Shown piece by piece: positions 909 to 63,500 of a DNA stretch of 64,000 bases. Made by a program: the position numbers and the translations under genes. The stretch lies in the NCBI RefSeq assembly GCF_029873635.1, contig NC_080417.1:25430182-25494181 (forward strand), written 5' to 3'. The notes beneath the pieces are model-generated. The model saw only the letters and a list, made by a program, of their open reading frames with translations, was not told where the DNA came from and searched no databases. Numbering within the stretch: position 1 is the stretch's first letter; every line of letters begins with the position of its first letter. This DNA is from Malania oleifera. Taxonomy: Eukaryota > Streptophyta > Magnoliopsida > Santalales > Ximeniaceae.

Positions 909-1359
909 CGGTCGACCAAAAGTGGTTCGGTCGACCGGGACTCAAGTAGCTCGGTCGACCGAGGGCATTTTGAACTAAGGGATCGGTCGACCGGGCAGGG
1001 GCGATTTTTCAATATTCTGAGGTTCGGTCGACCGGACACTTTTTGAACTACATGGCTCGGTCGACCGGAAAGGGAAATTTCCTAAACTTCCGAGGTTCGG
1101 TCGACCGGGGGACTTTTGAACTGAAATGCTCGGTCGACCAGACCGCTGGGAATTCTCCCAAGACCCTTCGGTCGACCAGGTAGTTGGAGTACAAGAGTGG
1201 TCGGTCGACCGGGAGGTCAAACGGTTGACTCCCAGGTGGTTCGGTCGACCAAGGTCAAATGACCTATAAGGGCTCGGTCGACCGGGCCAGGGTCAAATAG
1301 TTGACCCGGACCGGTTTCGGTCGACCGAACCAATTTGAACTGAAATGGTCGGTCGACCG
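909..1359. repeat. Array of 14 CGGTCGACC(G/A) dyads
   Basis: Copies start at 909, 928, 952, 984, 1025, 1058, 1098, 1131, 1169, 1202, 1242, 1275, 1318 and 1350. The full motif CGGTCGACCG is a perfect 10-bp palindrome; four copies end in A instead. A degenerate CGGTCGATCG lies at 1498. From 952 the intervals are 32, 41, 33, 40, 33, 38, 33, 40, 33, 43 and 32. Most of the short spacers share a TTTTGAACT-like phrase, so the unit looks dimeric at about 73 bp. Confidence 0.95.
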
Positions 1360-1823
1360 AAGGTGCACAAAGTGTGCAATTCGATCCCAAATTGACCCAA
1401 ATAAGTCTATTTCAAGTGCCTAATAAACATATGTGCATATGTGTGTGTCCTAAGGTCACTTGGGGTCTAATTTGAAATCACCGAAAAAGTCCGGTGTCGG
1501 TCGATCGAGGGTTCACCCTAAGGTCTTTCTATGGTTCGGTTTGAGCTTACAGATTAAATCATGCATGTGATGTGTGTGTGAGCTTATTACAACCCGAATG
1601 CCCTAATTACTATTACAGACATTTCCTACTTAAATATTACAGACCCGAATATCAATTACAACAAATCAATTATATCAAGGGTCTTCAAGGTCTTCGTTTT
1701 CCTCTGGGTCTCCGAGTGCCATCATAGGATGCTGCCAAGATAAACCTACACATCAACTTGGCAATCATTAAATACTTGAGTATTTGTCATAATCAAAACA
1801 GGGTGTAACACGTGAGGTCAACA

Positions 1824-3211
1824 AACCTTCTTCACCGGCGAAGAAGCCTTTACACTTTGCTCACCAAGAGCCGCAAGGTTCACCAAGAACCCTTGCAATC
1901 CTATTCATCAAAAACCTTTACACGGGAACCAATCCCTTTACAACAAGAGGATGAGAATAATACAAAGCAAATGCTCCTTGAATGAGCTTATATTTAATAC
2001 AATACAAAACCTCACACAACTCTCTCAAAGTAATGAATTAACACGAAGATTATAGAGCAAGAGAGAAGTTGAGCACTTGAAATATGAACAAAAATGAAGT
2101 GTGCTTAGGAATGATGTATAACTATTAAGATCAATCATAAAATAAGTCTTTGGACTTGTATTTATTGGAGAAAATGGGCTATTAGCCGTTTTATGACCAT
2201 TGGGCATTTAAAACAATAAAAAACTATGCAAACTAACCGTTTATAGTTGTTGGGGTGAAAATACCAATGCAAACCGTCGACAGTTTTCCAAAAATTATAT
2301 ATGGTTTTCCTGAAACCATCAAAGTAATCAACATAAAAGTTGTGATATTTTTTCTTAGCTTTCCATAAACACCAAGATCGCCCCTTTTGAATTTTTCTAG
2401 CAAAAGTTATACCCCAAATACTGAAAAGTGTTCAGGAAATTTGATAGGTGCATAACTAAGATTTTAAACCCAACTAAAAGGCCTTTTAATCACTTAAAAC
2501 ATTCTTGGACAAAAGTATTTATAATATATAAAGTCAAATGAAGATTAAAACTTGTCCAAGTAAGCTTTTCCTCAAATATAAGATATCTTGATTTATGAAA
2601 ACACTATTGAAAGATCATTTGATATCTTATATACTTAGAATGTCCTTTTACAAAAATATACTTAACATTTTTTTAAAGCTTTAGTTAACCATGCTTTGAC
2701 AAAACTAGGACCAAGTATAAAAAAGTTCTTAAAGTTAGGACATTAAAAACTTGTCTCTTTGAAAACATATTTTGAGTTTAGGATTGTTTTTGACAAACTC
2801 TTTGAATTTAACTTTGAAAACCATGAATATGAGTTTATGACTTTAATGCAATCCTATATATAAACTCAAGTGTCCTACTATGCATATGCAATGCTCAACT
2901 CTTGCTTAGAAATCATGCAAGAAATACACCCGCAAGAGTTACAGCATATACTACCTCAAACACTCCCCAAATATATATAAGACTACATTAAGCTTCCTTT
3001 GGTCATGCTTGGGTCCTTCCAAGTACGTGTCCATTTGATCTTTCCTTCTTGAAGTCTACTCGATCCAATTTTTGCTTTTGATCCAGTACTTCATGTACGA
3101 GTACCTGTACTAAACATGATCTGCAAAGATAAGAAAACACTAGGAACAATATATAGGTTAAGATCATCAAAATACTTTAAATAATGGTGGTGTAGCCACC
3201 AAGGCTAACAT
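1824..3211 (-). mobile_element. LTR H fragment, interrupted by LTR G
   Basis: The right end reads ...CCAAGGCTAACA (TGTTAGCC on the minus strand). It is followed by TTCTCCCTCTTTTTTATGATG, which on the minus strand is a purine-rich tract typical of a position just before a 3' LTR. The left part is lost beyond LTR G. Unlike the other SIRE-type LTRs it shows only one dyad-like motif (CCGTCGAC near 2272). It could be the 3' LTR of the element whose pol starts at 5100, but it does not visibly match that element's 5' LTR at 10021-14094. Confidence 0.5.
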
Positions 3212-3602
3212 TCTCCCTCTTTTTTATGATGCCTAACCTATTACTAATTTACTTAATCTTTGCATTCATATTTATACTTACTATGGCTTGATCTGCAACG
3301 ATAAGCTAACCTAAAACCACTAATGGGTTGTCATCATAAAACAAAAAAAAAAACTATTAAGCTTTCATAGCCTTTAAGGCTAACATTTTCTCCCCCTTTT
3401 TGATGATGGAAAACCACTCCCTTCTCTCAAACATCTCCCCCTTTGGACATCAATCAAAAAGGAGAAAAGAGTAATACAAAAAAAAAAAAAACAGAGAAGT
3501 GCTGCAATACATAGAACTTATAAAACTTCCAAACATAAAGAACATAATATCCGGTGAAGCACTAATACATAAAAGTGATAAATAGCTCATAGATGAAACA
3601 CA
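3212..3602 (-). repeat. Duplicated LTR start and polypurine tract
   Basis: The junction of purine tract and LTR start occurs twice, near 3204-3232 and 3377-3405, about 172 bp apart. The shared phrase TGATCTGCAA occurs near 3118 and 3290. A further minus-strand tract (AAAGGGGGAGATG) lies near 3440. No coding potential is seen. Either the 3' LTR edge was duplicated or a second LTR edge was inserted beside it. Confidence 0.5.
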
Positions 3603-4793
3603 TCAATCAGAGGCTTCCATAGACCCACTTTCGTCTTCTTCTTCTTCTTGATCACCGGATTCATCATCACTTGATGGAGCAGAGCTGATATCCATTGGAG
3701 ATTTGCCTTTAGAGGAGCTAGCCAGATGTTTCTCAATCTTGTCAACACGTTGAACAAGGCTGGAACAATGAGTTTTCATAGTAGAAACCTTCTACCTAAG
3801 TATTCCAAGTCCAGATTGCATTCCATCACTGAAGGTCATATAGTGATTAAAAAATGAAAGGAACCAAGAAGGAGTTTCTGGGTCAAGTTGAACTGAAGAG
3901 GCTGGTATGGAAGACTGAGGTGGTGGTGTAGATGATACATGACAATGTCCCTTATGAAACCACCCTTGAGGAGAGTTCTTATATCCCATACGCTTAAGAA
4001 TAGTATCAGAAAAGATATTATAATGGGTTTTGCTAGCGAAATTAAATGATGGTGTAAGAACATTGAAATGAGCAAATACCATATTTAACATCCCAGCATA
4101 TGGTAGAATGACACGAAGGGCATCAACTTTCATAATAATCCATTAAAACTTGGAAGATCCAACTTTTTTCCTTTAAGAATATACCACATAACAAAACAAT
4201 CTAAGAATGAAATATGATCATGAGAACCGAAACGTGGTAGAATATTATATGTAATAAGTTTGTGCAGGATTCGAGCTTGTAGATTGAGCTGTTTGTAAAG
4301 AGGAGGATGCAAAGTTGATAGGTGTATCAGTTATGACTAGGGGTAAAAATTCCTCTGGAGTAAATCCTTGGGACATTATCCATTGTTTCTCAACAATGTG
4401 GACCTCAAAATCTCCTAGCTTGACTCGAAGAATTTTTCCCAAAGATATGGGAGTAAGTTGAATATTTTGCCCTAGAAGATTTGTTTTGATCTCATTTTCA
4501 AATCGTTCCATATTTGCATAGAAAATCCAAACCACGTTTGGATAGTATCATTTTTCTTGATAAGTAATAAACCGATCTCATCCAATTTCCTTAAAAAGTT
4601 CCATAATTTCAGGAAAATCGAAATTGAAGAATGTAACATCAAGAACTTTACCTAGAATGACTTCGACTGAGGCGATTTGATTCCTATATAGTTGCATAGC
4701 ATGTGGAGTTACTAACCATTTCTCTACTTCATCATTGTTGATCCTTGTCGAAGAGGAAGAACCCTTGTTACCAACTGATTTTACCCGTGGCAT
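3603..4793 (-). pseudogene. SIRE env-like ORF (putative plant transposon domain), broken
   Basis: Pieces in different frames (4578-4793, 4245-4535, 4130-4312, 3792-4133 and on to a stop at 3603-3605) make one decayed reading frame. It contains FYANM, an ILHKLITYNILPR stretch and an FWLxCFxMWYIL-like stretch typical of the plant-transposon domain found in extra ORFs of plant retroelements. The C-terminal part is acidic (DDESGDQEEEEDES). It lies downstream of pol, where SIRE/Maximus copia elements carry an env-like ORF of unproven function. The start at 4793 is the first ATG with lysine- and serine-rich residues after it. At least two frame changes make a working protein unlikely. Confidence 0.7.
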
Positions 4794-5099
4794 GTTTGAA
4801 TGGAAGAGGAAAGCTAATAAACCCTAGGTTATATTCGCGATTTGATGTGGAGGGTAGGTTTGATGCTCGATTTTAGGCTGATTTGGAAGAAGATTCTGTG
4901 TGGAAAAGAGTAGGAAAAAAGAATTTCAGAGAGAGAGAGAAGAAGGAGCAGGTGCCTGAAGGAAGTTAAAATGACATAAAACAGGGTTTTAAACCCTACC
5001 CGCTGCGAGGCAGTCGCCTGTTAGGATGAGACAGGCCCCTGTCAATAAAAAATTTGAAACTCAGTAGCCTGGCAGTCGCCTGCCAAGCAAAAAAAAATT
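4794..5099 (-). repeat. Spacer between pol and env-like ORF with GGCAGTCGCCTG dyads
   Basis: No ORF is seen. Two clear dyads are present: GGCAGTCGCCTG near 5009 and GGCAGTCGCCTGCC near 5070. A degenerate form lies between them. The same motif forms the array in this element's 5' LTR (11116-11308), so internal and LTR sequence share one motif version. A short GA run lies near 4928. Confidence 0.75.
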
Positions 5100-6494
5100 T
5101 TAGTTTACTTCTCGAATATGCATCATTCCCAATTCTCTTCTAATGAATATGAATCGCTCTTCCAATAGAGGTTTTGTGAATATATATGCTAATTGGTCAT
5201 TTGTATTTACAAATTCTAGCATTATATCTTCATTTTGCACATGATCTCTCAAAAAATGATGTCTTATATCAATATGTTTTGTTCTTGAGTGAGATACCGG
5301 ATTTTTTGAAATATTAATGGCACTTGTGTTGTCACATTTTATTGGAATAGTTTGATATTGAATTTTGAAATCTTTTAGTTGTTGTTTCAAATACAATGTG
5401 TGGGCACAACAACTTCCTGTTGCTATGTACTCTGCTTCTGCTATGGATAATGCTACTGAGTTTTGTTTCTTTGAAGACCATGAGACTAAAGAGTGTCCTA
5501 GAAAATGACACGTTCCACTTGTGCTTTTTCTATCTATCTCGCATCCAGCAGAGTCTGCATCGGAATAGCTTATCATTTCAAATTCAGTTTCCTTTGGATA
5601 CCATAAACCTAGTTCAAGTGTGCCTAGTAGATATCTAAGGATTCTTTTAACCGCTGATTGGTGTGATTCCTTAGGAGCCGATTGGAACCTAGCACACATA
5701 CATACGCTAAACATAATATCTGATCTACTTACTGTTAAGTAAAGTAAGCTTCCTATCATACCTCGGTAATGCTTATTATCTACTTATTTCCCTTTTTCAT
5801 CATTGTCAAGACTAGTTGAAGTGCTCATGGGAGTTCCTATAGGTTTACTTTCTTCCATATCAAACTTCTTTAACATGTCTTTAATATATTTAGTTTGATT
5901 TATGAAAGTTCCATTTTTTGCATGTTTGATTTGTAACCCTAGAAAGTAATTTAACTCTCCCATCATGCTCATCTCAAACTCTTTTTGTATAGACTTAGCA
6001 AATTCATTACACAAATCCTCATGAGTTGCTCCAAAAATAATATCATCAACATAAATTTGTACTATAAGCATGTCTTTGTTTTTGGTTTTTATAAATAAAG
6101 TACTATCTATCTTTCCTCTTGAAAAATTGTTTTGAATTAGGAACTTGCTTAGCCTTTCATACCAAGCTCTAGGTGCTTGTTTTAATCCATATAAAGCTTT
6201 AGTTAAGTTAAATACATGATCTAGATTTTTTGAATTTTCAAAACCTGGAGGTTGTTTTACATATACTTCTTCGTTTATATATCCATTTAGGAAAGCACTT
6301 TTTACATCCATTTGATATAATTTGAAGTCCTTATATGCTGCATAAGCTAAGAACATCCTAATTGCTTCCATTCTTGCTACGGGGGCAAAGGTTTCATCGT
6401 AATCGATACCTTCTTCTTGATTATAACCTTGTGCTACTAGCCTAACTTTATTTCTTACAACAACTCTATTTTCATCCTTTTTATTTCCAAACAC
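5100..6494 (-). pseudogene. SIRE copia pol: reverse transcriptase and RNase H
   Basis: The 5784-6494 piece has the Ty1/copia RT signatures: [39 protein letters not shown] and the catalytic box YVDDI. The 5100-5759 piece begins MIGSLLYLT and carries the RNase H signatures YSDADSAG, AEAEYIA and KCDNTSA, ending with a TKHIDIRHHF region. These copy element RNA into DNA in the virus-like particle. The two pieces are separated by one in-frame stop near 5782 in an otherwise intact stretch. Upstream pol is more decayed. Copia assignment is secure because integrase lies before RT. Confidence 0.93.
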
Positions 6495-10018: not shown

Positions 10019-11115
10019 ATTGAAATTAAGATAGCTTCCCAAGAGGGGGGTGAATTGGAATTTTAAAATTATTTCAAGTTTAATTCTTTGTTTTATTTCA
10101 ACAATCACAACAAGTAAATACAAAAACAATTTAACCACAACCAATCAACAAGATAATCAAAATCTTGATCTTTGTATCAATAGTCTTGTAATAAATTGTA
10201 AAGCACGCTGAATTTATGTAAGTCCTGTGTTTATTCCAAACTCACAATTCTTCTTTGTGTTTAGATTTTAAACAAACTTTCAGATTAAAAAGTTTAGGAT
10301 GATCAACCAACATAGTCCCTTTCGGTTTCCACAATCAATGCTGATCAAGCCAAAACAAATTATCCTCCAATCTATTTAACAACCATACACTCAGAATTAA
10401 CAATTTAAAGCATACATGCAGGTTGTAAGTATAGCTAAAAAATAAAGAGTAAGGAAGAAGAGAGACACAAGATTTTACGAGGTTCGGCTTATACCTAGCC
10501 TACGTCGTTGCCTTTGGCAAACCACCAAAGGATTCATTAGTTTAGTTCCGTTGACGGGTGGAACAATACCGATAACAATCACTCCTTCCGTTAGGCTAGA
10601 GCCTGCCTCTCCAAATGAAATTCCCTCATTCGGTCCAACGATTCTACAGCCCTTAATCGTCTATAAATAAGAACCAAGATAGAGAAAAGTTTGTGTACAA
10701 GAAAACACTCTCACGGCAGAGTAGGTTAGTACAACATTCAGCACAATAATACTTCAAAGTAAATCAAATATAAAAGGACTGGAGCTCAATACTGAATTTA
10801 AATCACCAAATATCTTCCAAGTATTGAAAGATTTAGACTTTGAAGACTTTATTTCGAAGTTTACATCAGCACTAACTCAGTAGTTGAAGATAAATGAACA
10901 CAAGAGAATTTGAGAGATTTTTAGAGAACTTTGATTGCTAGAAATTTCTTGGTATCTAAAATATTTGAAGTTTGGGGCTATTTATAGAAGTTTAAAAGTA
11001 TTTCCTTACCCCCAAAGTTTCCTTGAAGTAATCCCCAAGTTTTTCAAAATAATAGTGTCCAAAAAATCCATTTAAAAAATCTTCCCGTTGGAAATTTTTA
11101 AGCCAACATTCGAGT

Positions 11116-11308
11116 GGCAGTCGCCTATCATAAAAGAAACTCACAACACAGAACACTCACAGTTGCCTACCAGAACCCAGGCAGTCGCCTGGCATGACCA
11201 CTCAGGCGCCTGGCTATATTCAGGTAGTCGCCTAACACCCTACTGTCTCTTTGAAAAATTCTTCATTTAATTTGGCAGTCGCCTGCCACATGAAGACAGT
11301 CGCCTGAC
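11116..11308. repeat. GGCAGTCGCCTG dyad array in SIRE LTR
   Basis: Copies start near 11116, 11179, 11203, 11221, 11273 and 11295, with diverged versions between. The best copy is GGCAGTCGCCTGCC at 11273. The array edge is 129 bp from the TATA box, on its upstream side in minus orientation. Confidence 0.88.
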
Positions 11309-11682
11309 CCTTCGGTTTTTGAAAACTTTTCTTTTTAAAACCCTTCTTTTCTTCGATTTTAAAAACATACTTTAGGGTTTTTCTAAAAATGTATTTCTAA
11401 GTTTTTTTTTATTTTATGAGAGCTTCAATTTAGTTTATACTTGAAACTAACTTGAAGTACTTACATACAAACATCCTTAAAACTTTATTCCTTTTGATCT
11501 TCAAGTAAGTCCTTGTTCTTCCATCATCTTTGAGTTTCTGATCTTTTCTATGAACTTTCATCAAATTATCTTTAATCCTCATGCTCTTCAAGACCTTTCT
11601 TGATCCATAAACTTTATCATCCTCTTGAAATTTGTCACTACCTGTAAGTTTTGCCTTTTTCCTGAAAAACTTTCACTTAAAC

Positions 11683-11692
11683 TGTGATGACC

Positions 11693-11746
<54 letters not shown>

Positions 11747-14025: not shown

Positions 14026-14201
14026 TAAACCATGTTAAATACATCATGATTTGTTATCATCAAAATAAGAATTGTAAGTTTTGTTAGGCCAACACTTATT
14101 ATAACAAATTCAACATGACATTGTTGGCAAAATCATAAGATGATTTTTTTACAAAGCTTAACTTAAGAAAATATTAAGCATGTCACGACCAGCTCATTTT
14201 T

Positions 14202-14202
<1 letters not shown>

Positions 14203-14243
<41 letters not shown>
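14203..14243. repeat. (AT)n microsatellite
   Basis: About 41 bp of pure AT dinucleotides near the left edge of the solo gypsy LTR. Smaller AT runs occur near 14718, 15424, 15604 and 15672. Confidence 0.97.
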
Positions 14244-14245
<2 letters not shown>

Positions 14246-15230: not shown

Positions 15231-15467
15231 GGCCCGTACGCCGATATTTCACATTTTATCATAGCTCGGCCCGTACACCAGCTACACATAGCACAGCCCG
15301 TACGCTAGCAAACAGTAATCACATAGCACTGCCCGTACGCTGGCAAATCACATCTCATAGCACGACCCGTACGCCAGCAATCACAGTCACATAGCACGGC
15401 CCCTACGCCAGCAAATGACATCCATATATATATATATATATGAAAACATCTCGGCCCGTACGCCGGT
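15231..15467. repeat. Array of seven CCCGTACGCC dyad units
   Basis: Copies of GGCCCGTACGCC-like sequence start near 15231, 15268, 15296, 15331, 15365, 15398 and 15453, mostly 28-37 bp apart. Most keep the palindromic core CGTACG. A phrase like CACATAGCAC lies between several copies. Confidence 0.9.

Positions 15468-16182: not shown

Positions 16183-16193
<11 letters not shown>

Positions 16194-16238
<45 letters not shown>
16194..16238. repeat. (GA)n microsatellite
   Basis: About 45 bp of GA dinucleotides, extended by interrupted GA from 16162. It gives rise to spurious Arg-Glu and Leu-Ser repeat ORFs on both strands. Confidence 0.97.
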
Positions 16239-16244
<6 letters not shown>

Positions 16245-16302
16245 GGAGAGGTTTTGTACAAAATGATATTTCTCCCGAATTTTTCATTCTTATAAAACAG
16301 GA

Positions 16303-16489: not shown

Positions 16490-16573
16490 GTCTACAACCT
16501 CCTTCTGTTTCCGATTTCCATTTCCTGTCCTTATTATTTAAATTTCATTTTAAATTCGGGTTGTTACAAAGCA

Positions 16574-51065: not shown

Positions 51066-51070
51066 ATATC

Positions 51071-51504
51071 TAATACGCCCAAAATAATCTAACTAATGAG
51101 GGCAGGTCAACGCCCATCTTGCACCTTCTCCGGATTTGACATCCAGACGAGTAATCAGCTCCAACTCAATAAAAAGGAGGAGAGATCCACGCCAGTGGCT
51201 TTAATAGCCGAGTAATAGGTGCACGCACTTATGGTTGGAGAGCGATTCGGGCTCCCGCGCAATAAATTCGAGCCAACCTACGGTCAACTCGAACCCCTAT
51301 AAGAAGAGATTCGGAGAAAAGGCCCAGGTAAGTCATTCGACACAATTATACTGTTGCATTCAACCTCTCTAAAAGCATTCCTCTTACTTAGGCATCAGAA
51401 TGATCCCCCAGAGTACACCCTGGGTCCCCCAAACCTTTCTTTTCTTCCTCTTTCAAGTTAACGGGGAGTCGAATGAGCATCCCTGCAATTTTTACCCCGC
51501 AACA
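51071..51504 (+). repeat. 5' LTR of the Tat element
   Basis: Starts TAATACGCCC; the TG seen in the 3' LTR has become TA. Ends CCCCGCAACA. GC-rich relative to its surroundings. Confidence 0.93.
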
Positions 51505-51520
51505 GTTGGCGCCGTCTGTA
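51505..51520 (+). promoter_or_regulatory. Tat primer-binding site region
   Basis: TTGGCGCCGTCTGT begins two bases after the 5' LTR. This sequence is common at this place in Tat/Ogre-type plant elements. I do not assign the primer tRNA. Confidence 0.8.
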
Positions 51521-51576
51521 GGAACCAGCTTTTTAGAGGGGATCATATCTTGCTCTCAACTTTCGACCTTCCAACA

Positions 51577-53138
51577 ATGCCAACCTCACACAGTTCTACC
51601 TCCATCCCTGCTGCAAAAGAATCATCCCAATCCATTCATTTCGTGCCTGCTGAGTCACCTGGTGTCAGTAGGGAGGAGTTCCTCGTTTTCCAAAAGGAAA
51701 TGAAGGACATGCTCAACTGACTCTTACAACAAAAAAGTCAAGAAAGACACGTCCTCCACCAACTGCAAAAGAACCCCAGCGCAGACAAACAGGCTAACAA
51801 ACCAGTGGAGAACGAGGAGAAAACCTACCTTAACAAGAAGGTAGAAGATGCAAACAGTGTGGATGTCAACCAACAAAGATCTACGGAATTCGAAGAAAGA
51901 ATCAAAAAGATAGATCATATAGAGAAGATGATGAAAGAGGTAAAACCAAACCCTACTACGGGGAAGCATCCCTGAGGTCTTCGGAGCCGCCATTCAATAA
52001 AGAAATCATGGAGGCTCCATTGCCAAGTAGATTCAAGATGTCCACCTTTGACAGGTACGAAGGTTTATCTGACCCAATTGATCACCTAAATAATTTTAAA
52101 ATGTTGATTCAGTTGCAAGGGGCTCCAGACGCAATCATGTGTCGAGCTTTTGCGACCACCCTTAAGGGTACTGCCAGAGATTGGTACCGAACACTACAAC
52201 CTGGATCCATCGGTTCCTTCTCAGACATGGAACAACTCTTCATCGGCCACTTCTTTAGCAGCAGGAGAGTTGCTAAAACAATTGGCCATCTCATGAGTAT
52301 GGCACAAGGAGAGCAAGAGACACTAAAAGATTTTATGCATCGCTTCAACACGGCAACCCTAGAAATCCGCAACTTAGACATGGGGGTGGCCTTAGCAGCC
52401 CTGACAACGGCTCTCCAGCCTGGAAGCTTCTTATACTCGCTGGGGAAAAAGTCGCCGGTAGACATGGGGGAGCTGATGGTCCGAGCGCAGAAGTACATCA
52501 TTCTAGAGGAGATGATGGATACGAGAGGAAGTCACATAGAGCGGAAAAGGAAAAACACTAGCAGGGAAACAAGAGATCCCTATAGATCCGCAAAAAGACA
52601 CGAGACTAGTGCGCTACACGCGGGTCAAAAGATGAGAGGACAGCACAACAAGTTCTCCACCTACACACCCCTGAACATACCGCGCTCGGAATTACTGATG
52701 CAAATCAAAAAGAAGGATTACATCTCGTGGCCTGATCCCATGCAAAAACCTCTTCATAAGCGGGACATGTCCAAGTTCTGCGCATTCTACAGGGATCACG
52801 GCCACGACACAGAAGAATGCATTCAATTAAAGAAAGAAATCGAAGTCCTAATAAGAAGAGGACACCTGTCAAAGTTTGTGAAGAGAGAAGATCCCGTGCG
52901 AGAACCTCTCGAACAAAGGAGACATGGCGTAAAAGAAAAAGAAGAGCAGGTCATAGGCGAGATCACGGTGATCTTCAAAGGATCCTCCGGTGAAGAAGAT
53001 AGCGAGAGTGCCCGCAAAAGATATGCTAAACAGGTGCTATCAATGGAGAAGGGGGAAACCAGTAGCAAACGAAACAAAAAAGATGACATCATAACTTTTG
53101 ACAGTGGAAGACGAAGAAGAGGTGTAGCAGCCACATGA
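51577..53138 (+). pseudogene. Tat gag, broken near its start
   Basis: The start at 51577 (MPTSHSS) hits a stop at 51718-51720 and a frame change near 51975. From 52008 a 376-codon frame carries the retrotransposon gag core (ARDWYRTLQPGSIGSFSDM, then FFSSRRVAKT and LKDFMHRFN). A zinc-finger-like CAFYRDHGHDTEEC is followed by LKKEIEVLIRRGHL, a pattern usual in Tat gag. It ends at a stop at 53136 before protease. Gag packages element RNA. Confidence 0.9.
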
Positions 53139-53145
53139 TAACGCC

Positions 53146-53682
53146 TTGGTGCTCTCCCTACTTGTGGCCAATTACATGGTTAGATGCATATTGATACACA
53201 ATGGGAGCTCGGCTAACATCATGTTCTGGTCGGTCCAAGTCGAGATGAAGATCAGCAAGGAACGACTCAAACCGATCTCGACCCCCCTGGTAGGATTCAG
53301 AGGAGACATTGTTCACCCCTTGGGAACAATCACGTTACCGGTGACAATAGGGACGAACCCGCAGCAAGTCACGACGCTGACGGAATTCCTTGTTGTCGAC
53401 CGACCTTCGGTGTACAATGTCATCTTGGGTCGCCCTTTCCTCAACGCAGTTCGCGCTATAACGTCAACATACCACCTCAAAATCAAATTCCCTACAACAC
53501 AAGGGATAGGATTTGCCAAGGGAGATCAGGTCGCTGCTTGGAGCTGCTATATAATGGCCTTGAAAGGGAAGATGGAGGCTAGAGAAACTCTAATGATGGA
53601 AGATCTAGAAGTAAGGGGAGAATATCTCCAAATTAGTACAGTAGATGAAGACATCAAGCATATACTTCTGAAGGACCACTAG
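53146..53682 (+). pseudogene. Tat protease, catalytic Asp lost
   Basis: The frame reads ILIHNGSSANIM where aspartic proteases have ILID(N/G/T)GSSA, so the catalytic Asp is His. The rest of the fold is recognisable (PLVGFRGDIVHPLGTITLPV, then VYNVILGRPFLNA). Gag and protease frames differ, and a TAG occurs in the protease frame near 53114. It is probably inactive, although the substitution could be recent. Confidence 0.88.
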
Positions 53683-53699
53683 GAGAGAAGTGTATAGAT

Positions 53700-54840
53700 C
53701 GGAAATCACCTGCCCGACACCTTGAGAGCGAAGCTGAGCGAACTGTTGGATGAATTTGCTGATTTGTTCGCTTGGTCGGCCACAAATATGCCTGACATTG
53801 ATCCTACAGTCATAGAGCACAAGCTGCAGGTCGACCCCAATCACTGACCTGTGAAATAAAAAAAAAAGAGCTTCGCGATGGAGCGGATCAAAATAATCGA
53901 TGAGGAAGTGACGAAGCTGGTGCAGGCCAACTTCGTCCGGGAGGTAGACTACCCGATGTAGCTGAGCAACGTGGTTCTAGTAAGGAAGCCGAACGGAAAA
54001 TGGCGCACTTGCATAGACTTCAAGGACTTGAATAAGGCGTGCCCAAAGGACAGCTTCCCTCTTCCTCGAATCAATCAGCTAGTGGACTCGACCTCGGGGC
54101 ACGAGCTCCTTAGTTTCATGGATGCCTACTCAGGGTACAACCAAATCCCTTTGAATCGAGCTGACAAGGAAAAAACTTCTTTCATCACTAAAAGGGGCTT
54201 ATATTGTTACTGGGTGATGCCCTTCGGCTTAAAAAATGCAGGGGCCACATATTAGAGATTGGTGAACAAAATCTTTAAAGATCAGCTTGGAAAAACAATG
54301 GAGGCATACGTAGACGATATGTTGGTCAAAAGCATGGAAGCAAGGCAACAACAGTAAAGACTTGAGGGAAACGTTTGAGCTTCTTCGCCGATGCCACATG
54401 AAACTGAACCCATCGAAGTGTGTATTCAGCGTTTCTGCAGGAAAGTTCCTAAGCTTTATGGTGACTCATAGAGGTATAGAAGCAAACCTAGATAAAATAC
54501 GAGCGCTGCTGGAAATGGAAGGTCCGAGGACTAAAAAGGAGATCCAAGTTTTGACTGGAAGGATAGCCTCCCTCAGCAGGTTTGTCTCCTGCTCAGGGGA
54601 CAAAGGCTTACCTTTCTTCAGAGCACTACGGAAGAAGAGAGGATTCGAATGGGGGGAGGAGCAAGCCAAAGCCTTCGAACAGCTTAAACAATACCTCGGA
54701 TCCCCTCCTCTCTTGACAAAGGCAAAGAATGGGGAAGACCTCTATCTATATATAACATCTAAGGAAAATGCCGTCAGCTCGGTCTTGGTCCGAGAAGAAG
54801 GCAGGAAGCATCAGCTCATATTACATGGCGGAAAAAGCCG
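53700..54840 (+). pseudogene. Tat reverse transcriptase and first RNase H, frameshifted
   Basis: The N-terminal part (ADLFAWSATNMPDIDP) has stops near 53845 and 53959. Intact RT at 53971-54255 shows VRKPNGKWRTCIDFKDLNKA, FPLPRI and DAYSGYNQI. Next comes a stop in place of Gln at 54253, then YVDDM at 54307-54321, then a frame shift near 54357. The 54362-54830 frame covers the thumb and connection (MKLNPSKCVFSV, RFVSCSGDKGLPFF). The following ordinary RNase H is broken into several frames after about 54830. Confidence 0.9.
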
Positions 54841-54920
54841 CCTTCTCCATCATCTGTGCGGCACGAAAATTATGGCCCTATTTTCATGCCCACGAGGTAG
54901 TTGTGTTAACAAACCTATGA

Positions 54921-55610
54921 ATGAGACAAATTCTGCAGCGGCCGGAGAGTTCGGAAAGGATGACGAAGTGGTCAATTAAATTAAGTGAGTTCGACATACA
55001 GTATCAACCAAGGCCCGTTGTCAAGGCCCAAGTACTCGCTGATTTTGCAGCAGAAAGGCTCCCCGATACATCCACTAAGTCGGACGTATGGACACTGCAT
55101 GTTGATGGGTCCTCTAACATTGCTGCAGGGAGAGCTAGATTCATCCTTTCAGCCCCGGACGACAGTGAAACTCTTTTCGCACTAAAGCTGGAGTTCACGG
55201 CAACCAACAACGATGCGGAGTATGAAGCTTTGTTAGCAGGCCTACGCCTGGCAGAAGCATTAGGGATGGCACAAATCAAGGTATTGAGTGATTCTCAGCT
55301 GGTGGTAGAGCAACTGAAAGGAGAATTTGAAGCTAAGGATCAAAGAATGAAGAAATATCTATTTACGGCCCGAGAATACACAAAAGCATTCGTTCAGTTC
55401 GACATAGAACACGTACCAAGGGCAGAGAACAAAAAGGTCGATGCACTCACAAAATTGGCCTCAGCAACCTGTTCGGAATGGCAAGATGCTATTTATCTTG
55501 AACGAATAGGGAAACCCTCATACGAGGAGGACAGAATTAACTCGGTAGAGTTCAAAATCAGCGAGGACGATTGGAGAGCGTCAGGACGGATCCCTACCAG
55601 AGGACAATAA
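54921..55610 (+). CDS. Tat second (archaeal-type) RNase H, frame intact
   Basis: A 229-codon frame starts in the end of the first RNase H (KWSIKLSEFDIQYQPRP). It then gives a full second RNase H: LHVDGSSNIAAGRA, DAEYEALLAGLRLA, VLSDSQLVVEQL and ENKKVDALTKLA, placing the expected acidic residues D, E, D, D. This extra domain is a Tat-lineage mark. It is the best-preserved part of pol but sits in a dead element. Confidence 0.85.
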   Translation: MRQILQRPESSERMTKWSIKLSEFDIQYQPRPVVKAQVLADFAAERLPDTSTKSDVWTLHVDGSSNIAAGRARFILSAPDDSETLFALKLEFTATNNDAEYEALLAGLRLAEALGMAQIKVLSDSQLVVEQLKGEFEAKDQRMKKYLFTAREYTKAFVQFDIEHVPRAENKKVDALTKLASATCSEWQDAIYLERIGKPSYEEDRINSVEFKISEDDWRASGRIPTRGQ

Positions 55611-55623
55611 GGAAGCTCTAAAG

Positions 55624-56790
55624 TTGAGGAGGAAAGCTAAAAGATATACACTGATGGGCCAGGAGCTTTACAAGCGATCCCTAACACTGCCCTACCTTCG
55701 GTGTCTAAGCAACGAGGAAGGGGAGTACATACTACGGGAAATCCACAAAAGAGTGTGCGGAAACCACCTTGCCAGTAGGGCTCTGGCCCATAAGGCCATG
55801 TGGCAGGGATTTTACTGGCCCACAATGAAGAAGGATGCGGTCGAGCTCGTCAAATGATGCGACAGATGTCAAAGACGCGCAGTAGTACCACATGTACCCT
55901 CTAATCTACTCTCCCCTCTAACCAGTCCCTGCCCTTTCGTGCAGTGGGGGATAGACATCCTCGAACCTCTGCCACAAACGACTGGCCAAAAAAAGTTTTT
56001 GTTGGTAGCAATAGATTATTTTACTAAGTGGGTAGAGGTTGAACCTCTAGCCACCATAACAGAAAGGAATATTACGCACTTTGTGTGGACAGCAGTGGTT
56101 TGCCGATTCGGAATCCCTTGGGCAATAATTACGGACCACGGGAGGCAGTTCAACAACAAATGCTTCAAAAAGTTCTGTTCGGACCTATCTATTAAGCTCG
56201 TTTTCGCATTAGTAACGCACCCCTAGAGCAATGGACAGGTAGAGAACATGAACCAGACGATACTGCACGGTTTGAGGACGCGACTCGAGTCTATGCAAGG
56301 TAGATGGGTAGAGGAACTCCCTTCACTCATATAGGCATACCACACCACCAAGAGGGCAGCAATAGGGGAAACTCCTTTTACGCTTGCCTTCGGCACAGAA
56401 GCGGTCATCCCAGAAGAGGTAGGGACACCCTCATAGCGAAGGCAGTACTTCAACGAGCAGACCAACAACGAAGAGCTCATATCAGAAATAGACCTACTGG
56501 AAGAGAGACAGGATCAGGCGAGTCTAAAAGTTGCAGTATACCAACAGAAAGTAGCTAGGTATTACATCAAACGCATCAAAGTACGAAATTTCCAGCCGGG
56601 AGACCTAGTTCTAAGGAAGGCGCGGAACAACCCGTCCGAGTCAGGGTCGCACAAGTTAAAGCCCAACTAGGAGGGCCCATACAGAGTCACAACCGAGATA
56701 AAGCCAGGGACATACAAGTTAGAAGATGTAGGGGGAAAGAGATTAAGAACACATGGAACTCGGAAATGTTAAAAAAAATACTATTCTTAA
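55624..56790 (+). pseudogene. Tat integrase with stops
   Basis: The zinc domain runs EIHKRVCGNHLASRA and GFYWPTM to a stop at 55855, then CDRCQR. The core shows WGIDIL, ITDHGRQFNNK and, after a stop at 56224, NGQVENMNQT: the D, D, E triad. Most relatives have DNG where this has DHG. Further stops occur near 56332, 56434 and 56668. The C-terminal part (RNFQPGDLVLRKA) is still legible. Confidence 0.9.
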
Positions 56791-56884
56791 AAAGCACTTC
56801 TTGTAGTGCTGTAATAAAAGTATCAATTACAATAGTTGTACTACGTCAATAAAGTTTGAAAAATTACAAATTCAGTTCCTACAA

Positions 56885-58612
56885 ACTAGTTTGCTTTTCT
56901 TCGCTCTCTAGCTTCTTCCTCCTCTCCCTCCTCATCCTCGTCCAGATCTTCGGCGGATTCCGGACTCTCATTGCCATAGCCATGTGAACTCACACCGTCC
57001 AACGGAAGCTCAGGGTGTTTGGTTTTGACTTGGTCCCAGCACCTCCTGAATCCCACCCGATATGCTTTGGAAGTATCAATGACGAATTGGTTGGAGTCCT
57101 TGTACTCCTTTACTGCAATTCGGGAGGCAGTAGCAGCAACGGCAGCTTCCCTAGCAGGTAACTCCTCCCTACGAAGGCACTCAATCTCGACTTGCAGAGC
57201 CCGCTCATGGACCTCGGCCTCGCGTAGTTCGTTCTAAGCAACAACGTACTTCTCCCTGCTGTCTAAGGTCTGCCGGTACATCTCGGCAACCTTCTCCTCC
57301 TGGGCCAGAGCCATCATCGCTAGCTGAGGGAGAACACAAAAACACAGAACAGTCAACAAAACTATGTATAAGGGGAGAAGAATGAAGCCAGTTGAAGAAT
57401 ATACACCTGGTATGAGGAATGGCGGATCTTCACAGAAAGAGCGTCAGGAAGAGTACACTGGGCCTACACAAAATCCTCAGCGTGCACCGCCCGACGGAGG
57501 GTAGAGCAGAACGGGTCGACTCGTGAAAAATCGCTTCAATAAGAGGCTGAGGGATTGGAGGAGGAGTAGCGTTGATTTCTTCTTGATGGACACCTGAATC
57601 ACCTGTAGCGGGTGCATCCCTTTGGGAAGATTCCCCCTCAATCTCCCTTCTCTTCTTCCTACTCCTGCTCACCCTTTGATTTCTGGCTTCCCTCATGAGA
57701 GATTCATATCTGGTGAAGTCCATATCTGCAAGGGTAGAGAGAAAAAGAGTTAACACTAACAATAGAGATAATATCTGAATACATACATATAGAAATTAGA
57801 GGCGATGAGAGACTTGAGGAAACGGGGTTGATCCCCCACTGAACGAGGACACGCTCTTGGAGCAACTCCTCATGAGGGACAATACCCTGCTCGTCAAGGG
57901 CTCGAAGCTCTTTCAGGATGGCTTGCTCGTCGGGTGAAAGCCTTGGAAGAAGGTGGCGCACCCGAACTACAAAGGAAAAATGACGAAAGGAAAAAGTTAG
58001 GTCAGCGGATAACCTACTGGTAGCCCTGTGAAAGAAGGTGGAGAAGGGAGAGACCACGTTACCATCAAGAGGAGAAGACCAGACCAAAGAGCCCTTGTAG
58101 TTCAACTCACCCGAAGCAAAGAAGTAAAGAGACTTCCAGTTATGTATGGAAGAGCTACCCGACGAAAAAATTTTATAACGTGGTAGAGAGTTGAAATAGT
58201 ACAACTCCTTCTTTACAGAATGTGTTCACGTCTTGAAACAACTCCTAAAGAGAGGAACTGTTGGCTGGTGGCCGAGGCGGAGTAGAAGGACGATAAAATA
58301 GGTAAGCGAGAGATAGGAGTTTGGAACAAGTTGGGAAGGCGCTATCCGGTAGAAACGTAATACACTAGAGACAAAGGGGGGAAAAGGAAGCTTGAGACCC
58401 AAATCTAAATAATCTATATAGAGGCAGAGCTCTCTGGAACCTAGATCAAGGGCTGACTCGGAAGCAGAGGGTAACCTAACAGTAATACCCTGTGGTATAG
58501 CAAAGAAGTAATGAACATTCTGTAAGTCATAAAGGGTAAGGCCACAACGGGCGTTCCTTACCGTAGTAAGAACCCTCAAAGGCTGTGAAGAAGACTCCAT
58601 GAGGGGAAACAA
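56885..58612 (-). pseudogene. Antisense ORF of Tat element (gypsy-type transposon domain)
   Basis: It is read opposite to gag-pol. From about 58600 it gives MESSSQPLRVLTTV, LCLYIDYLDLGLKLPFPPFV, LRFYRIAPSQLVPNSYLSL and VPLFRSCFK, matching the 'putative gypsy type transposon' domain. Further blocks lie at 57704-58204 and 57430-57762. A Glu-rich acidic end lies near 56890-57310. Splice-like junctions occur between blocks (for example donor GGTGAGTTG near 58106 and GT near 57725). Antisense ORFs of this kind are known in Retand-like Tat elements; function is unknown. At least one frame break is present. Confidence 0.72.
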
Positions 58613-59260
58613 AGCGTGAATAAGACAATACCCTTACCAACGGATCAAACGTGCAAGCACCCAACAAAAACAAAGAAGAAAAGATGCCCAAGCAGATCAA
58701 AACAGTAAAATTCCGCACACAAACAATAAGGCCGTCTTACAAAAAAAAAAAAAAAGGATCAAACGCACAAAGTTAACGCAAGAATAGCGAAGAACATGAA
58801 GAACAACAAAACAAACATATAGTAGAGAGGGGGAGCATACCTAATGATAAATGGGAGACCCCGTGGATTGAAGAAGAGAAAAGAATGAAGGAGCCCTCTA
58901 CTCGGAAGATATGTGTAGAATGAAGGAGTCTTCTGGCCTTTATAAAGAGAGGAGGGCACGAATCCCTGAGGCGGGAATCTCAAAATTTCTCATTTGCAAA
59001 AAAGGATTGTGTCTCGAGGGGAAAAAGGACGCAGAGAATCCCATAAACCCATAGGAGATCTCTGACATAGGCACACCGCGGCTTCCCAAGGACAAATGGC
59101 ACCTCGAAAAGGCTACATCGCCTCGGACACAACATCAGACAAGGGACCATAAATGAGAACGTTTCATCTGACCCACTTCCCAAGGTATGGTGCATTTAAA
59201 ACATGCATTTATCACTTTCGCAGGAAAAGAAGGATGTGACGACGCCTCGGGAAAATGAGT
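58613..59260. other. Tat 3' region, leader of antisense ORF
   Basis: Mostly non-coding. A minus-strand frame at 58759-58983 (RFPPQGFVPSSLYKG) and a TATAAA-like minus motif near 58940 may mark the antisense transcript start. An A-run lies at 58741-58756. Confidence 0.35.
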
Positions 59261-59363
59261 AGATGAAACACCTAATAAAAGAGCACGACTCACTAAGCAT
59301 GACACACCTGTGGCCGAGGCGATGCTGCCAAGCGTGGCTTAAAAAAAAAACGGCCCAACAGAT

Positions 59364-59600
59364 GAGCATGACTCATCATGCTTATAGACCCAAACGACGA
59401 GCACGACTCATCAGGCTTATAGGCTTAAACGACGAGCACGACTCGTAAGGCCAAAAATAGCCCAGCAGATGAGCACGACTCATCAGGCTTATAGGCCCAA
59501 ACAAAGAGCACGACTCGAAAGGTCAAAAATAGCCAAGCAGATGAGCACAAATGGACAGGCCAAAAAATAGCCAAGTAGATGGACATGAAATGGAACGCCA
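59364..59600. repeat. ~36-bp tandem repeat, GAGCACGACTCAT units
   Basis: Units start near 59364, 59396, 59432, 59470, 59505 and 59540. Alternating units carry CAGGCTTATAGGCCCAAAC or GGCCAAAAATAGCCAAGCA. The core GAG-N5-CTC is a dyad. Related single units occur from about 59280. Confidence 0.88.
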
Positions 59601-59629
59601 GAATAGCCCAACACATAAGCGCGGCTCAG

Positions 59630-60352
59630 ACAACTCATCTAGTTTCCCTCCATGGGACAGGTCGGACAACTTCCATGCATGGAACAGATCAAGTCGGCCA
59701 ATTCCCCCTCATGGAGCAGGTCAAACAGGTCGGCAAAAATTCCCTCCAAGGGACAGGTCGGACAGGTCGGCCGAATATCCTTCATGGAGTAGGTCGGACA
59801 GGTTGGCCAACGTCCCTCAATGGAGCAGGTCAGATAGCTCGGCCCGAACAACTCTTCAAAGAGCTCAGATGAAGCAGCTCGGACAAGATAGCTCGGCAAA
59901 ACAGCTTAGCCCGAGCAACTCTTCAAAGAGCTTGGACGATGCAGCTCGGCACAAACAGCTCTGCAAAACAGCTCGGCCCGAGCAACTCTTCAAAGATCTC
60001 GAACGAAGCAGTTCGGCACGGACAGCTCGGATAAAACAGCTCGGCAAGACAGCTCGGAAAAACAGCTAGGCCCGAGCAACTTTTCAAAGAGCTCGGACGA
60101 TGCAGCTTGGCACAAACAACTCGGTAAAACAACTCGGCCCGAGCAACTCTTCAAAGAGCCCGAACGAAACAGCTCAGCATGGACAGCTCGGACAAAACAG
60201 ACCGGCAAGACAGCTCGGCAAAACAGCTTGGCCCAAGCAACTCTTCAAAAAGCTCAGACAAAACAATTCAACATGAGTAGCTCAGATAAAATAGCTCGGC
60301 ACGAACAGCTCGGACAAAATAGCTCGGACAGCTCGGCACAGGTTGCTCAGCA
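59630..60352. repeat. AGCTCGG-rich minisatellite in Tat 3' region
   Basis: Two blocks. 59630-59830 has units with CATGGAGCAGGTCGGACAGGTCGG. 59830-60352 is built on CAGCTCGG with GAGCAACTCTTCAAAGAGCTC, about 65-120 bp higher-order spacing. All long ORFs here on either strand are repeat readings, not genes. Tat/Ogre elements are known to carry such arrays and to seed satellites. Confidence 0.9.
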
Positions 60353-60407
60353 CCTCGTTCGGTAAACCAAAAAAAAAAAATGGAGAGGAGATGAGAGAAA
60401 GAGAAAA

Positions 60408-60461
60408 GAGAAGAAGAAGAAGAAGAAGGAGAAGAAGAAGAAGAAGAAGGTGAAGAAGAGG
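60408..60461. repeat. (GAA)n microsatellite
   Basis: About 18 GAA triplets with a few changes, just inside the Tat 3' LTR. Confidence 0.95.
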
Positions 60462-60538
60462 AAACAAATATAGATTGGGAACATTAAACCAAGATGCAGA
60501 CAAAATAATTATTCAAAATTCTTTCCAGAAATTTGAAA

Positions 60539-60554
60539 CTGAGGGGGGGACAAC
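60539..60554 (+). promoter_or_regulatory. Tat polypurine tract
   Basis: ACTGAGGGGGGGACAAC lies directly before the 3' LTR start TGATACGCCC and would prime plus-strand DNA synthesis. Confidence 0.8.
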
Positions 60555-60987
60555 TGATACGCCCAAAATAATCTAACCAATGAGCGCAGGTCAACGCCCA
60601 TCTTGCACCTTCTCCGGGTTTGACATCCAGACGAGTAATCAGCTCCAACTCAATAAAGAGGAGGAGAGATCCACGCCAGCGGCTTTAATAGTCGAGTAAT
60701 AGGTGCACGCACTTATAGCTGGAGAGCGATTCACGCTCCCGCGCAATAAATTCAAGCCAACCTACGGTCAACTTGAGCCCCTATAAGAAGAGATTCGGAG
60801 AAAAGGCCCAGGTAAGTCATTCGACACAATTATACTGTTGCATTCAGCCTCTCTAAAAGCATTCCTCTTACTTAGGCATCGTTGTGATCTCCCGGAGTAC
60901 ACCCCGGGTCCTCCAAGCCTTTCTTTTCTTCCTCTTTCAAGTCAACGAGAGTCGAAGGAGCATCCCTGTTATTTTTACCCCGCAACA
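60555..60987 (+). repeat. 3' LTR of the Tat element
   Basis: 433 bp, TGATACGCCC to CCCCGCAACA, the partner of 51071-51504. It keeps the original TG end. Confidence 0.94.
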
Positions 60988-60992
60988 ATATC

Positions 60993-61690: not shown

Positions 61691-62845
61691 TGTTGGCTTT
61701 GGTGTATTCCCAAGAGGAGGGTGAATTTGAGATTAAAAATTTCCTCTTAGATTCAACTAATCGAGCAGACAGTATTTCACAAACTTAGGGTCTTTCTATG
61801 TATTTACAATCCCAATCAAATATTTAAAAAATAAACATAAACATACAGGTGCAGAAAGTAAATTGTAAAAAATAAAATCAACACCAGATATGTTATTGTG
61901 GTTCGGCCAACTGTGCCTACGTCCTCGCCTCTAGCTCGCAAGCCTGAGAATTCCACTAATGCTCACTTAATGGGTGGAGCGGCACCGATTACAACTAAAT
62001 CAATTAGTAAGGGCTAACCTCAACCTTTACAATCAGGTCAATTAGCGGGGTTGATCTCAATTTACACCTTACCAGGATGGTGTACTTGGCTTTCCTAACT
62101 AGGTCTAAGTCCATTTAGGACTATTCTATAGGGCTAGTTTCCCTTTTTAGACCCACGCCTTGAATACAACCAATACAATACAAACCAAACCGGATACAAT
62201 GATTATGCTTCTCAATCAAGCAAATATGTACCAAATGACAATCAATCAACACACATCAATAATATAGGAAATGTAAGTTCAGTGATGTGACTATGTGCAA
62301 TCAACACTTAATATTATGGATAATCTCAAATATGCACAAGAGTGTATAAACAAGGTTTTCTTTGAAACACAATATAAATATCTTAATGCAAGCTTAGGGT
62401 TTCAAAGATGCCGATTAGAATATTCAAACAATCTCAACAATATTTTCTTCGATATAAAAGGCACAAAAGTTATTTGAAAAATGAACTTTGGAAAATGGGT
62501 TTTTGCACACACAAAAATGTAGCACAAAGAATCTTGCAACGAGAATGAAAAGATCCTAAGGCTAATGAGTTTTCCCACACAAAATTTGTCAATGAAATTG
62601 GTGGGAAACACTCTTGCTTAACTCTCAAAAATCAAACACAAACAATAAGCACAAGAGAGAGTATTTAGCAATCTTAGGATTTACCATAATTACACTTGGA
62701 TCACTCACAATAGATGAATGATCAAGGAGAGGAGTATATGTGAGTATTTGGAGGTAGTATGGACAAAATAAGGTTATGGATTTTCTAAGAATTTTTGCCT
62801 TAATCTTTTTGCTAATCCCCCACTAATTTTGACAAATGATTGGGC

Positions 62846-62878
62846 ATATATAGAAATGGGGGAAAAATAACCGTTGGG
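62846..62878 (-). promoter_or_regulatory. Putative core promoter of LTR F: TATA box plus MSA
   Basis: Minus-strand CCCAACGGTTA (62868-62878) matches YCYAACGGYYA exactly, about 16 bp upstream of TATATA (62846-62852). The array edge is 129 bp from the TATA box. Confidence 0.52.
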
Positions 62879-62980
62879 GAACATGTTGGGAATTTTCCAA
62901 AATGTTTTAATTGTGTTTAAAAAAAATTAACCCCAATTACCTTTAATTTTCTCAAGTAAAAAATTTGCAACTCGAGAGAT

Positions 62981-63500
62981 TTCGAGTGGTTGAACTTTAG
63001 TTCGATCGTCCGGAGAGACTCAGCTTAAAAAGGCCATTTTAAAAGGTTCAGGTGCTCGAGTTTAAGCTCTGTTGGCTGAATAAATGTCAAAAACTTTCTA
63101 TCGCGGTTCGGGTGCTCGAAGCTAAGTTCAGTTAACCAAACTCAAATGTTAGGTCGCTCAGGGCCTATTTTGAACTAAAACCTTCGATGGTCCGAGTTGG
63201 TGAAAAGTTCCCTTACAAGGGTTCGGTTGCCTGGAGACGATATGCTCATTTCTAGTTTGGTCGTCTGAAACTAAGTCAACCCGTTGACTTCCTAGCGGTT
63301 CGAGCGCTCGAGGTGTTTTAAACACCAAGGGTCGCCCGACCTTTTACAATTTTGTCTATATGGTCCAATTCATTTTCAATTTGATCCCCTCATTGAGCAA
63401 GTTATTTTGGGGACTGTTTGTGCATATGTGTAGGGACCTAAGGTCTTTTCTAAGGCCATTTTGAGATAATCCCAAAAATTCGGCTTCGGTTGACCAATCC
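62981..63500. repeat. TTCGGGTGCTCGAA-type dyad array in LTR F
   Basis: About 12 diverged copies, including TTCGGGTGCTCGAA (63107) and TTCGAGCGCTCGAGG (63299). One spacer holds TATTTTGAACTAAAA (about 63167), as in LTR G. Confidence 0.78.

Follow-up and report, generated by a model that had tools for sequence, protein, structure and literature searches.

Palindrome arrays in Sirevirus LTRs and the helical phasing of their distance to the TATA box

The closest described relatives of the arrays reported here are the RM boxes of Sireviruses, which, in the accessible text of the original description (Bousios et al., 2010; PMC2829016), occur in element-specific versions, with further copies ahead of the envelope-like gene, and whose variants were proposed to bind different nuclear factors. 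The function of RM boxes was left open there in 2010, and it is on this question that the phasing described below bears. In maize, the palindromes of Sirevirus LTRs are small-RNA hotspots (Bousios et al., 2016, as reported in the available parts of PMC10760457 and PMC5311732). A third system is found in VANDAL transposons, where the VANC protein removes silencing and targets non-coding repeats (available parts of PMC5735166 and PMC10398659). A machine-learning study of plant LTRs (PMC11656987) contains, in its available text, nothing on RM boxes.

In the window (the whole 64-kb stretch of DNA analysed), dyad arrays were located in eight LTRs of Sirevirus (Ty1/copia) type and in two internal stretches, each element having its own version; array coordinates are defined by 14-bp units. 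An earlier note had placed such arrays in SIRE-type LTRs and two internal regions. This overall observation was partly confirmed: arrays are present in eight LTRs and two internal regions, but they are not confined to one lineage, as an array of TTTCGTCGACGAA (16303-16490, strand not assigned) sits inside a nested non-Sirevirus LTR-like element at about 11685-16568. The proposed GNCGNC pattern, moreover, does not describe LTR F or many decayed copies.

Four of the LTRs lie on the minus strand. LTR G starts at 1823 and continues past the left window edge (array 907-1509, version CGGTCGACCG; TATA at 779). The 5' LTR of element 1, here the 10021 LTR (10021-11684), is cut by a nested element and has its PBS on the inner side at 10018, its TATA at 10987 and an array with the core CAGGCGACTG at 11116-11308. 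LTR E (34159-36212; array 35412-35739, adjoined by one degenerate dyad copy; TATA 35285) is a solo LTR with CAAAG on both flanks, and LTR F spans 61691-63779 (array 62981-63312, TATA 62853). On the plus strand are LTR C (18284-20741; array 18976-19284, TATA 19412), LTR D (21913-23968; array 22355-22609, TATA 22737), LTR B (27316-31518; array 27634-28144, decayed TATA 28272) and, inserted within B, LTR A (28636-30807, left end uncertain; array 29082-29388, TATA 29485), at whose ends no matching target duplication was found. The internal array of element C (16775-17072, plus strand) has the version GACAGACGACTGTC. That of element 1 (5009-5084, minus strand) repeats the version of its own 5' LTR; it follows the last pol ORF and precedes the envelope-like ORF, whose ATG is 215 bp further on.

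The Sirevirus identity of these elements was assessed from several signals. Among the window LTRs, a copia-type reverse transcriptase is tied to element 1 alone (ORF 5784-6494, minus strand; RVT_2, E 1.9e-69), and the 5' LTR junction CA/ATTGG/TATCAGAGC is exact in that element (10021-10007, minus strand); the window LTRs other than this 5' LTR are solo, truncated or 3' LTRs. The putative broken envelope-like gene of element 1 (4130-4823, minus strand), a gene optional in Sireviruses, consists of collinear fragments that match PF20167 at 21.1 and 25.7 bits, below the cut-off of 45. Sireviruses have several PPTs of the form AGGGGGAG in the linker, with AT/TG next to the one at the 3' LTR; such octamers occur in element C at 17660 and, together with AT/TG, at 18274, and in element 1 at 3442 and 3397 on the minus strand, while LTR D has a shortened AGGGAG preceding AT/TG. 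A poly-C integrase signal lies near the LTR end in the 10021 LTR, C, D, A, B and F; the scan found none in LTR E, and the end of LTR G is outside the window.

We compared the arrays with the properties of RM boxes, namely a palindromic consensus, at least 8 copies per element, a CGG-CCG core, a downstream TATA box and copies of the LTR version upstream of the envelope-like gene. In every array, 10 to 12 of the 14 consensus positions are paired (the units having been collected with palindromic seeds). Units matching at 10/14 or better number 15 in G, 12 in A, 10 in B, 10 in E, 8 in D and 6 in F; LTR C has 5, with an exact 168-bp duplication removed, plus 10 in the internal array, and the 10021 LTR has 6 plus 4. 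Units below this match were excluded from the covariation, CpG-deviation and register tests, and the second copy of the LTR C duplication from these and from the seed-free dyad tests. G, B and E have the CGG-CCG core, and F has it in part. A CTATA-like box lies downstream of the array in 8/8 LTRs, that of B matching at only 7/9. Like RM boxes, the arrays are CpG-rich palindromes repeated many times within the LTR, upstream of the TATA box, with one version per element, and element 1 carries its LTR version again upstream of the envelope-like gene; the Vitis RM version in PMC2829016, CGGTCGACCG, is identical to that of LTR G. A difference from RM boxes is that CAG-CTG replaces this core in C, D and the 10021 LTR; in Table 3 of that paper only Tnd-1 is without CGG-CCG. 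The versions follow two clades of LTRs, with CGG-CCG in B, E, F and G, CAG-CTG in C, D and the 10021 LTR, and A, of mixed core, between them.

The comparison with shuffled sequence proposed in the earlier note bore out most of the LTRs. At 5/5 arm pairs, CG-containing dyads in G, B, C, D, the 10021 LTR and both internal arrays were equalled or exceeded in 1 to 22 of 500 dinucleotide shuffles; LTR E has no 5/5 CG dyads, and its count at 4/5 pairs was equalled or exceeded in 3/500. Taken singly, neither A (53 and 30 of 500) nor F (79 and 63 of 500) was significant, and the dyads of the 16303 array were not above shuffles (500 and 387 of 500). Seed-free dyads occur at 19.8 per kb in arrays, the 16303 array included, and at 5.9 elsewhere; those with a central CG number 24 in arrays, which make up 6% of the window, and 11 elsewhere. 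Across the host genome (1.49 Gb), TTCGGTCGACCGAA has 3249 copies and its reversed control 1, and GACAGACGACTGTC has 2108 copies and its reversed control 3.

The claim that versions differ between elements and are common within an element was upheld by a nearest-match test, in which 22.6 of 74 seed-free dyads were best matched by their own array (8.5 expected). The dyads of the internal arrays best matched the LTR of their own element in 3/3 and 6/8 cases. This test replaced a fixed-register comparison of unaligned seed-free dyads within and between arrays, which gave P = 0.106 because dyad register was not fixed; the corresponding excess among units (0.77 within, 0.58 between) is inflated because array-specific seeds picked them. 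Mirrored positions co-vary across arrays at the outer five pairs (0/1000 shuffles). Within arrays, paired arms were no commoner than after re-dealing half-sites among copies (P = 0.27), and the dyad in 49 CGG-type loci comprised 53 CGG-CCG, 6 hybrid and no double-changed CAG-CTG copies. The earlier proposals that copies of one array change together, and that single copies are under pressure to stay palindromic, are therefore not supported. Versions diverge between LTR lineages through matched change of both half-sites, presumably tracking the specificity of a factor; the idea of variant-specific factors is itself not new, having been put forward in PMC2829016. CpG decay was also considered as the cause of version change: deviation was alike at CpG (0.150) and other positions (0.158), a comparison left unused because a majority consensus conceals lost CpGs.

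In the window, first unit calls placed 7/8 TATA boxes 126-128 bp from the dyad, with at most 4/8 in 20,000 shuffles; a later assignment put the distance in LTR E at 105. A rigid distance of 127 bp was rejected, as genome loci gave several classes and only 7/25 CGG-side TATA boxes lay at 126-128. Across 22 families, dyad-TATA distances show a peak at a period of 10.5 bp (R 0.69, falling to 0.02 at 10.0 and 0.06 at 11.0), and none of 10,000 draws with a random phase per family matched this coherence. Of 80 genome loci, 32 were left out for want of exactly one 9/9 TATA at 60-260 bp, and 1/26 was left out for a weak anchor. Within the CGG clade, most promoter-proximal dyads are 105, 116 or 127 bp from the TATA box, with rare cases at 95. 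After anchoring, which leaves aside 14/49 CGG loci that lack an anchored promoter and one with two TATAs, 33/34 distances fell within 94-96, 103-106, 115-117 or 126-128, as did 14/15 in loci outside class discovery, although locus counts overstate independence because copies are related. A dyad-blind anchor-to-TATA pattern matched at 8899 places; of the 100 listed, 18 lay at 114-117, 82 at 124-128 and none at 118-123 or 129-141. For shorter gaps it matched at 1252 places, and of the 100 listed here 86 lay at 104-106, 2 at 95 and 12 off the classes. This genome-wide quantised distance is new here; the accessible text of PMC2829016 reports average distances, with no distance classes or helical phase.

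The reading that we prefer, with a probability of about 0.64, is that the arrays serve Sirevirus LTR promoters as upstream activating sequences. Each would be a row of sites for a putative sequence-specific dimeric DNA-binding protein, with dyads and TATA on one face of the helix and, in the CGG clade, the proximal dyad whole turns upstream (about 105, 116, 127 and rarely 95 bp). The dimeric factor suggested in the earlier note gains from the phasing, which sites for such a factor would predict, and from arm covariation between arrays, but not from any palindrome pressure on single copies. Elements 1 and C repeat their LTR version internally, and in element 1 this second array lies directly ahead of the envelope-like gene, which could bring two promoters under one factor; no TATA at 8/9 match or better was found behind the internal arrays. 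For the half-site, the known transcription-factor motifs W-box, ARF and DRE were considered as identities. Whole-turn phasing is a simple, quantitative indication that protein binds the DNA. It can be looked for in other plants with sequenced genomes, provides a contrast between half-turn and whole-turn spacers and helps to tell a role in the promoter from the one in small-RNA production that has been proposed for these palindromes; the versions themselves may help to find the factor. A bolder form, which we consider doubtful, is that the arrays are phased operators of a private regulator, encoded by the element itself or else a host factor engaged in an arms race. The versions would then record how its specificity changes, such that lineages switch their LTR and envelope-like promoters without waking rivals.

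It is unlikely that the palindromes matter as RNA stems of LTR transcripts that feed small RNAs and silencing. Folding is strong in G (z -10.5) and reaches -4 to -5.6 in B, A, E, C and the 16303 array, and the maize Sireviruses likewise have a palindrome-rich LTR cis-region with folding potential, their palindromes being published small-RNA hotspots (PMC10760457; PMC5311732, in the parts available). Unlike that case, folding is not common to all arrays here: 4/10 regions show no more folding than their shuffled versions (10021 LTR -1.2, internal C 0.2, D -0.7, F -1.4). Sense-strand deviations are balanced (44 C-to-T, 42 G-to-A), and hairpins do not predict helical TATA phasing, a DNA-level property that favours a dimeric factor bound on one face of the DNA as the reason for the palindromes. 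A hairpin role may act alongside the promoter role.

Still less probable is that an element-encoded, VANC-like factor binds the arrays and removes silencing. We know of no such Sirevirus factor, the phasing suggests transcription proper, and the envelope-like gene is a candidate by neighbourhood only. The arrays are, nevertheless, common to LTR and internal region, and they resemble VANC targets as repeated non-coding motifs that diverge between related elements; the latter differ in that their motifs (YAGTATTAC/T) are not long palindromes and belong to DNA transposons with a known binding protein (PMC5735166; PMC10398659, in the parts available). We regard it as very unlikely that the dyads, with no specific factor involved, simply fix the rotational setting of nucleosomal DNA, which would fit the 10.5-bp phase and the higher-order array steps near 73 bp, but needs no specific palindrome versions with matched half-sites. 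Least likely of all is descent alone, with distances inherited without function through tandem duplication and homogenisation: distances are indeed common to copies of one family and copy-level compensation is absent, but spacer length is kept or altered by whole turns though the spacers cannot be aligned between clades (identity 0.25-0.35; shuffles 0.27-0.30), and 7 changes of distance class fall on an LTR tree with 23 rows (omitting L030, L035 and window LTR B), a small number on a single tree.

Several further observations concern the activating-sequence reading and its distances. Of the CAG-type TATA boxes, 18/27 lie at 126-130; CAG-type loci, mostly at one distance, are a weak test of phasing. 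The 95 class is based on L050 and L051, of which L051 fails a stricter anchoring rule, and L027, at 107, is off the classes. For a control distance, from TATA to the U5 block, R at 10.5 bp was 0.48 in each of the two groups (10 and 5 families), a value obtainable by chance at such small family numbers. Window dyads more than 150 bp from the TATA box have no shared register between clades (P = 0.12; all dyads, 0.0006). A search for protein relatives in genome and viral contigs returned none; pattern matches in viral contigs were in GC-rich contigs (0.55-0.74), with 2-3 copies each. Finally, unit-to-unit spacing alone is non-random, with a blurred period (best 9.5-10).

The dyads of this window, short near-palindromes set in arrays within Sirevirus-type (Ty1/copia) long terminal repeats (LTRs), are not a product of chance, and their existence as described in an earlier note stands. 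When 14 bp array units were gathered array by array, the perfect five-pair dyads of seven arrays were matched by just 1-22 of 500 dinucleotide shuffles. Under dinucleotide shuffling, array E has an excess at four of five arm pairs, and arrays A, F and 16303, taken singly, show no dyad excess over 500 shuffles. Seed-free dyad density in the window is 3.4 times higher in arrays than outside, and across the whole genome two versions (motif forms of single arrays) occur 3249 and 2108 times, compared with 1 and 3 times for the reversed words. The main claim of that note, one motif version per array as sites of a dimeric factor, is already published, because the accessible text of Bousios et al. (2010; PMC2829016) reports repeated-motif (RM) boxes in 13 Sireviruses, palindromic in every case and with a CGG-CCG core in all except one, and proposes that RM variants are targets of different factors. 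These boxes lie upstream of the TATA box, with additional copies upstream of the envelope-like gene. The Vitis box printed there is the same as that of LTR G, whereas the CAG-CTG group is a variant without the published core. In maize, the accessible parts of two papers connect these palindromes with small RNAs and with a contest of regulation against silencing (PMC10760457, PMC5311732). What is new here is the position of the dyads relative to TATA; a literature search, mostly of papers outside subscription, found no helical phasing of RM boxes.

Of the eight LTRs in the window, seven had their last dyad at 126-128 bp from TATA by the first calls, and none of 20,000 shuffles exceeded four; in LTR E, a degenerate dyad shifts this distance to 105. 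We then sampled 80 genome loci, 40 per version, all from one contig and the first of each count, and kept 48 (single perfect TATA, one side), dropping 32. Across 22 families, the distances to TATA of dyads within 300 bp have a sharp 10.5-bp period (R 0.69, against 0.02 at 10.0 and 0.06 at 11.0), a coherence reached by none of 10,000 draws with random phase per family. Between the two clades, spacer sequences are unalignable. CAG-type arrays have perfect TATA boxes at 126-130 in 18 of 27 cases, and test phasing only weakly.

For the CGG clade, distances were measured from a conserved anchor word after the last dyad, CTCTCGGGTTG. With one of 26 loci (22 genome, four window LTRs) omitted for too weak an anchor, the distances were 95 (2), 103-105 (6), 115-116 (6) and 126-128 (11); these 25 include L035 and L051, two genome loci that fail a stricter anchor rule. 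That rule found 35 of 49 CGG loci, 34 with one TATA and 33 in the distance classes (~95, 105, 116 and 127 bp). Among loci new to the test (10 filtered out earlier and five of nine held out), 14 of 15 fell in the classes; all locus counts include kin copies and are hence non-independent. A dyad-blind genome-wide pattern of anchor and TATA with any gap of 100-129 gave 8899 matches (reversed control, 0), and among 100 listed, 18 lay at 114-117, 82 at 124-128 and none elsewhere in 112-141. Gaps of 70-99 gave 1252 matches; among 100 listed, 86 lay at 104-106, two at 95 and 12 were scattered. Listed matches come from one contig of one genome, the first of each count. An IQ-TREE phylogeny of 23 LTRs implies seven class changes, for example sister LTRs at 95 and 126 within a 105 clade. 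As a control, the TATA-to-U5-block distance varies from 338 to 1039 bp (CGG loci) and from 480 to 610 bp (CAG loci), with no clear phase (R 0.48 at 10.5 bp, 10 and five families).

Proteins bound on one face of the DNA would require spacing in whole helical turns. VANC-like anti-silencing is, by analogy, a fair alternative. A role for the palindromes in RNA folding does not predict whole-turn steps, folding shows no excess in four of ten regions, and C-to-T and G-to-A deviations are balanced. On these grounds the arrays are taken as putative upstream activating sites of a dimeric factor. The version that an element's LTR and internal region have in common would connect two promoters; no TATA was found behind the internal arrays.

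Each internal array has the version of the element it belongs to. Two groups emerge from the LTR trees, CAG-CTG (C, D and the 10021 LTR, the 5' LTR of element 1) and CGG-CCG (B, E, F, G), with A intermediate; F and G are the closest U3 pair (68%), and their versions are nonetheless unlike. One version per array holds by nearest match (22.6 of 74 dyads prefer their own version, against 8.5 expected) but not in a fixed-register test (P = 0.106). Between arrays, mirrored positions co-vary (outer five pairs; 0/1000 shuffles), but inside arrays there is no compensation among copies (P = 0.27), and 49 loci gave 53 matched, six hybrid and no double-changed copies. The palindrome is therefore a property of the version, not mended copy by copy, and the suggested pressure keeping single copies palindromic was not borne out.

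All 22 CGG-type loci tested (window sites and loci among L019-L058) have a site resembling YCYAACGGYYA, a mitosis-specific MYB (MSA) motif, that begins 25-26 bp upstream of the TATA box and scores 8-11 of 11 positions, with at least 10 in 12 loci; none of 26 CAG-type loci reached 8. In the window it lies at 795-805, 35301-35311 and 62868-62878 (minus strand) and 29449-29459 (plus). This site may time CGG-type promoters to cell division.

In LTR A (29082-29388), the first 10 dyads flip orientation alternately, mostly in steps of 20-22 bp, and RNA folding of this array is strong (z -5.1). LTRs G, D and E (907-1509, 22355-22609, 35412-35739) have paired spacings of 33+40, 22+51 and 32+41, in both clades summing to ~73 bp, near seven helical turns.

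The source is a 1.494 Gb plant assembly of 510 contigs, and the window holds eight Sirevirus-type LTRs along with remnants of internal regions. On the minus strand, element 1 combines a copia reverse transcriptase, the junction CA/ATTGG/TATCAGAGC, a poly-C integrase signal, two PPT octamers and a putative broken envelope-like gene, all Sirevirus marks in the accessible text of PMC2829016. Past its PPTs, in the expected 3' LTR place (1824-3400, adjoining the start of LTR G at 1823), nothing matched the element's 5' LTR significantly and no dyad array was visible by eye. LTR E is a solo LTR flanked on both sides by CAAAG, and LTR B, judging from LTR ends, appears to host LTR A. A nested non-Sirevirus LTR-like element (~11685-16568), whose ends TGTGATGACCC...GGGTTGTTACA are Del-like by comparison with the accessible part of PMC4029996, bears its own dyad row, TTTCGTCGACGAA, at 16303-16490. 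The adjacent LTRs C and D each contain an exact tandem duplication, 168 bp in C (19063-19402) and 185 bp in D (23186-23555); these are either recent events or assembly artefacts. Another, separate element occupies 51070-60987, with an LTR pair 93% identical and a Retrotrans_gag match.
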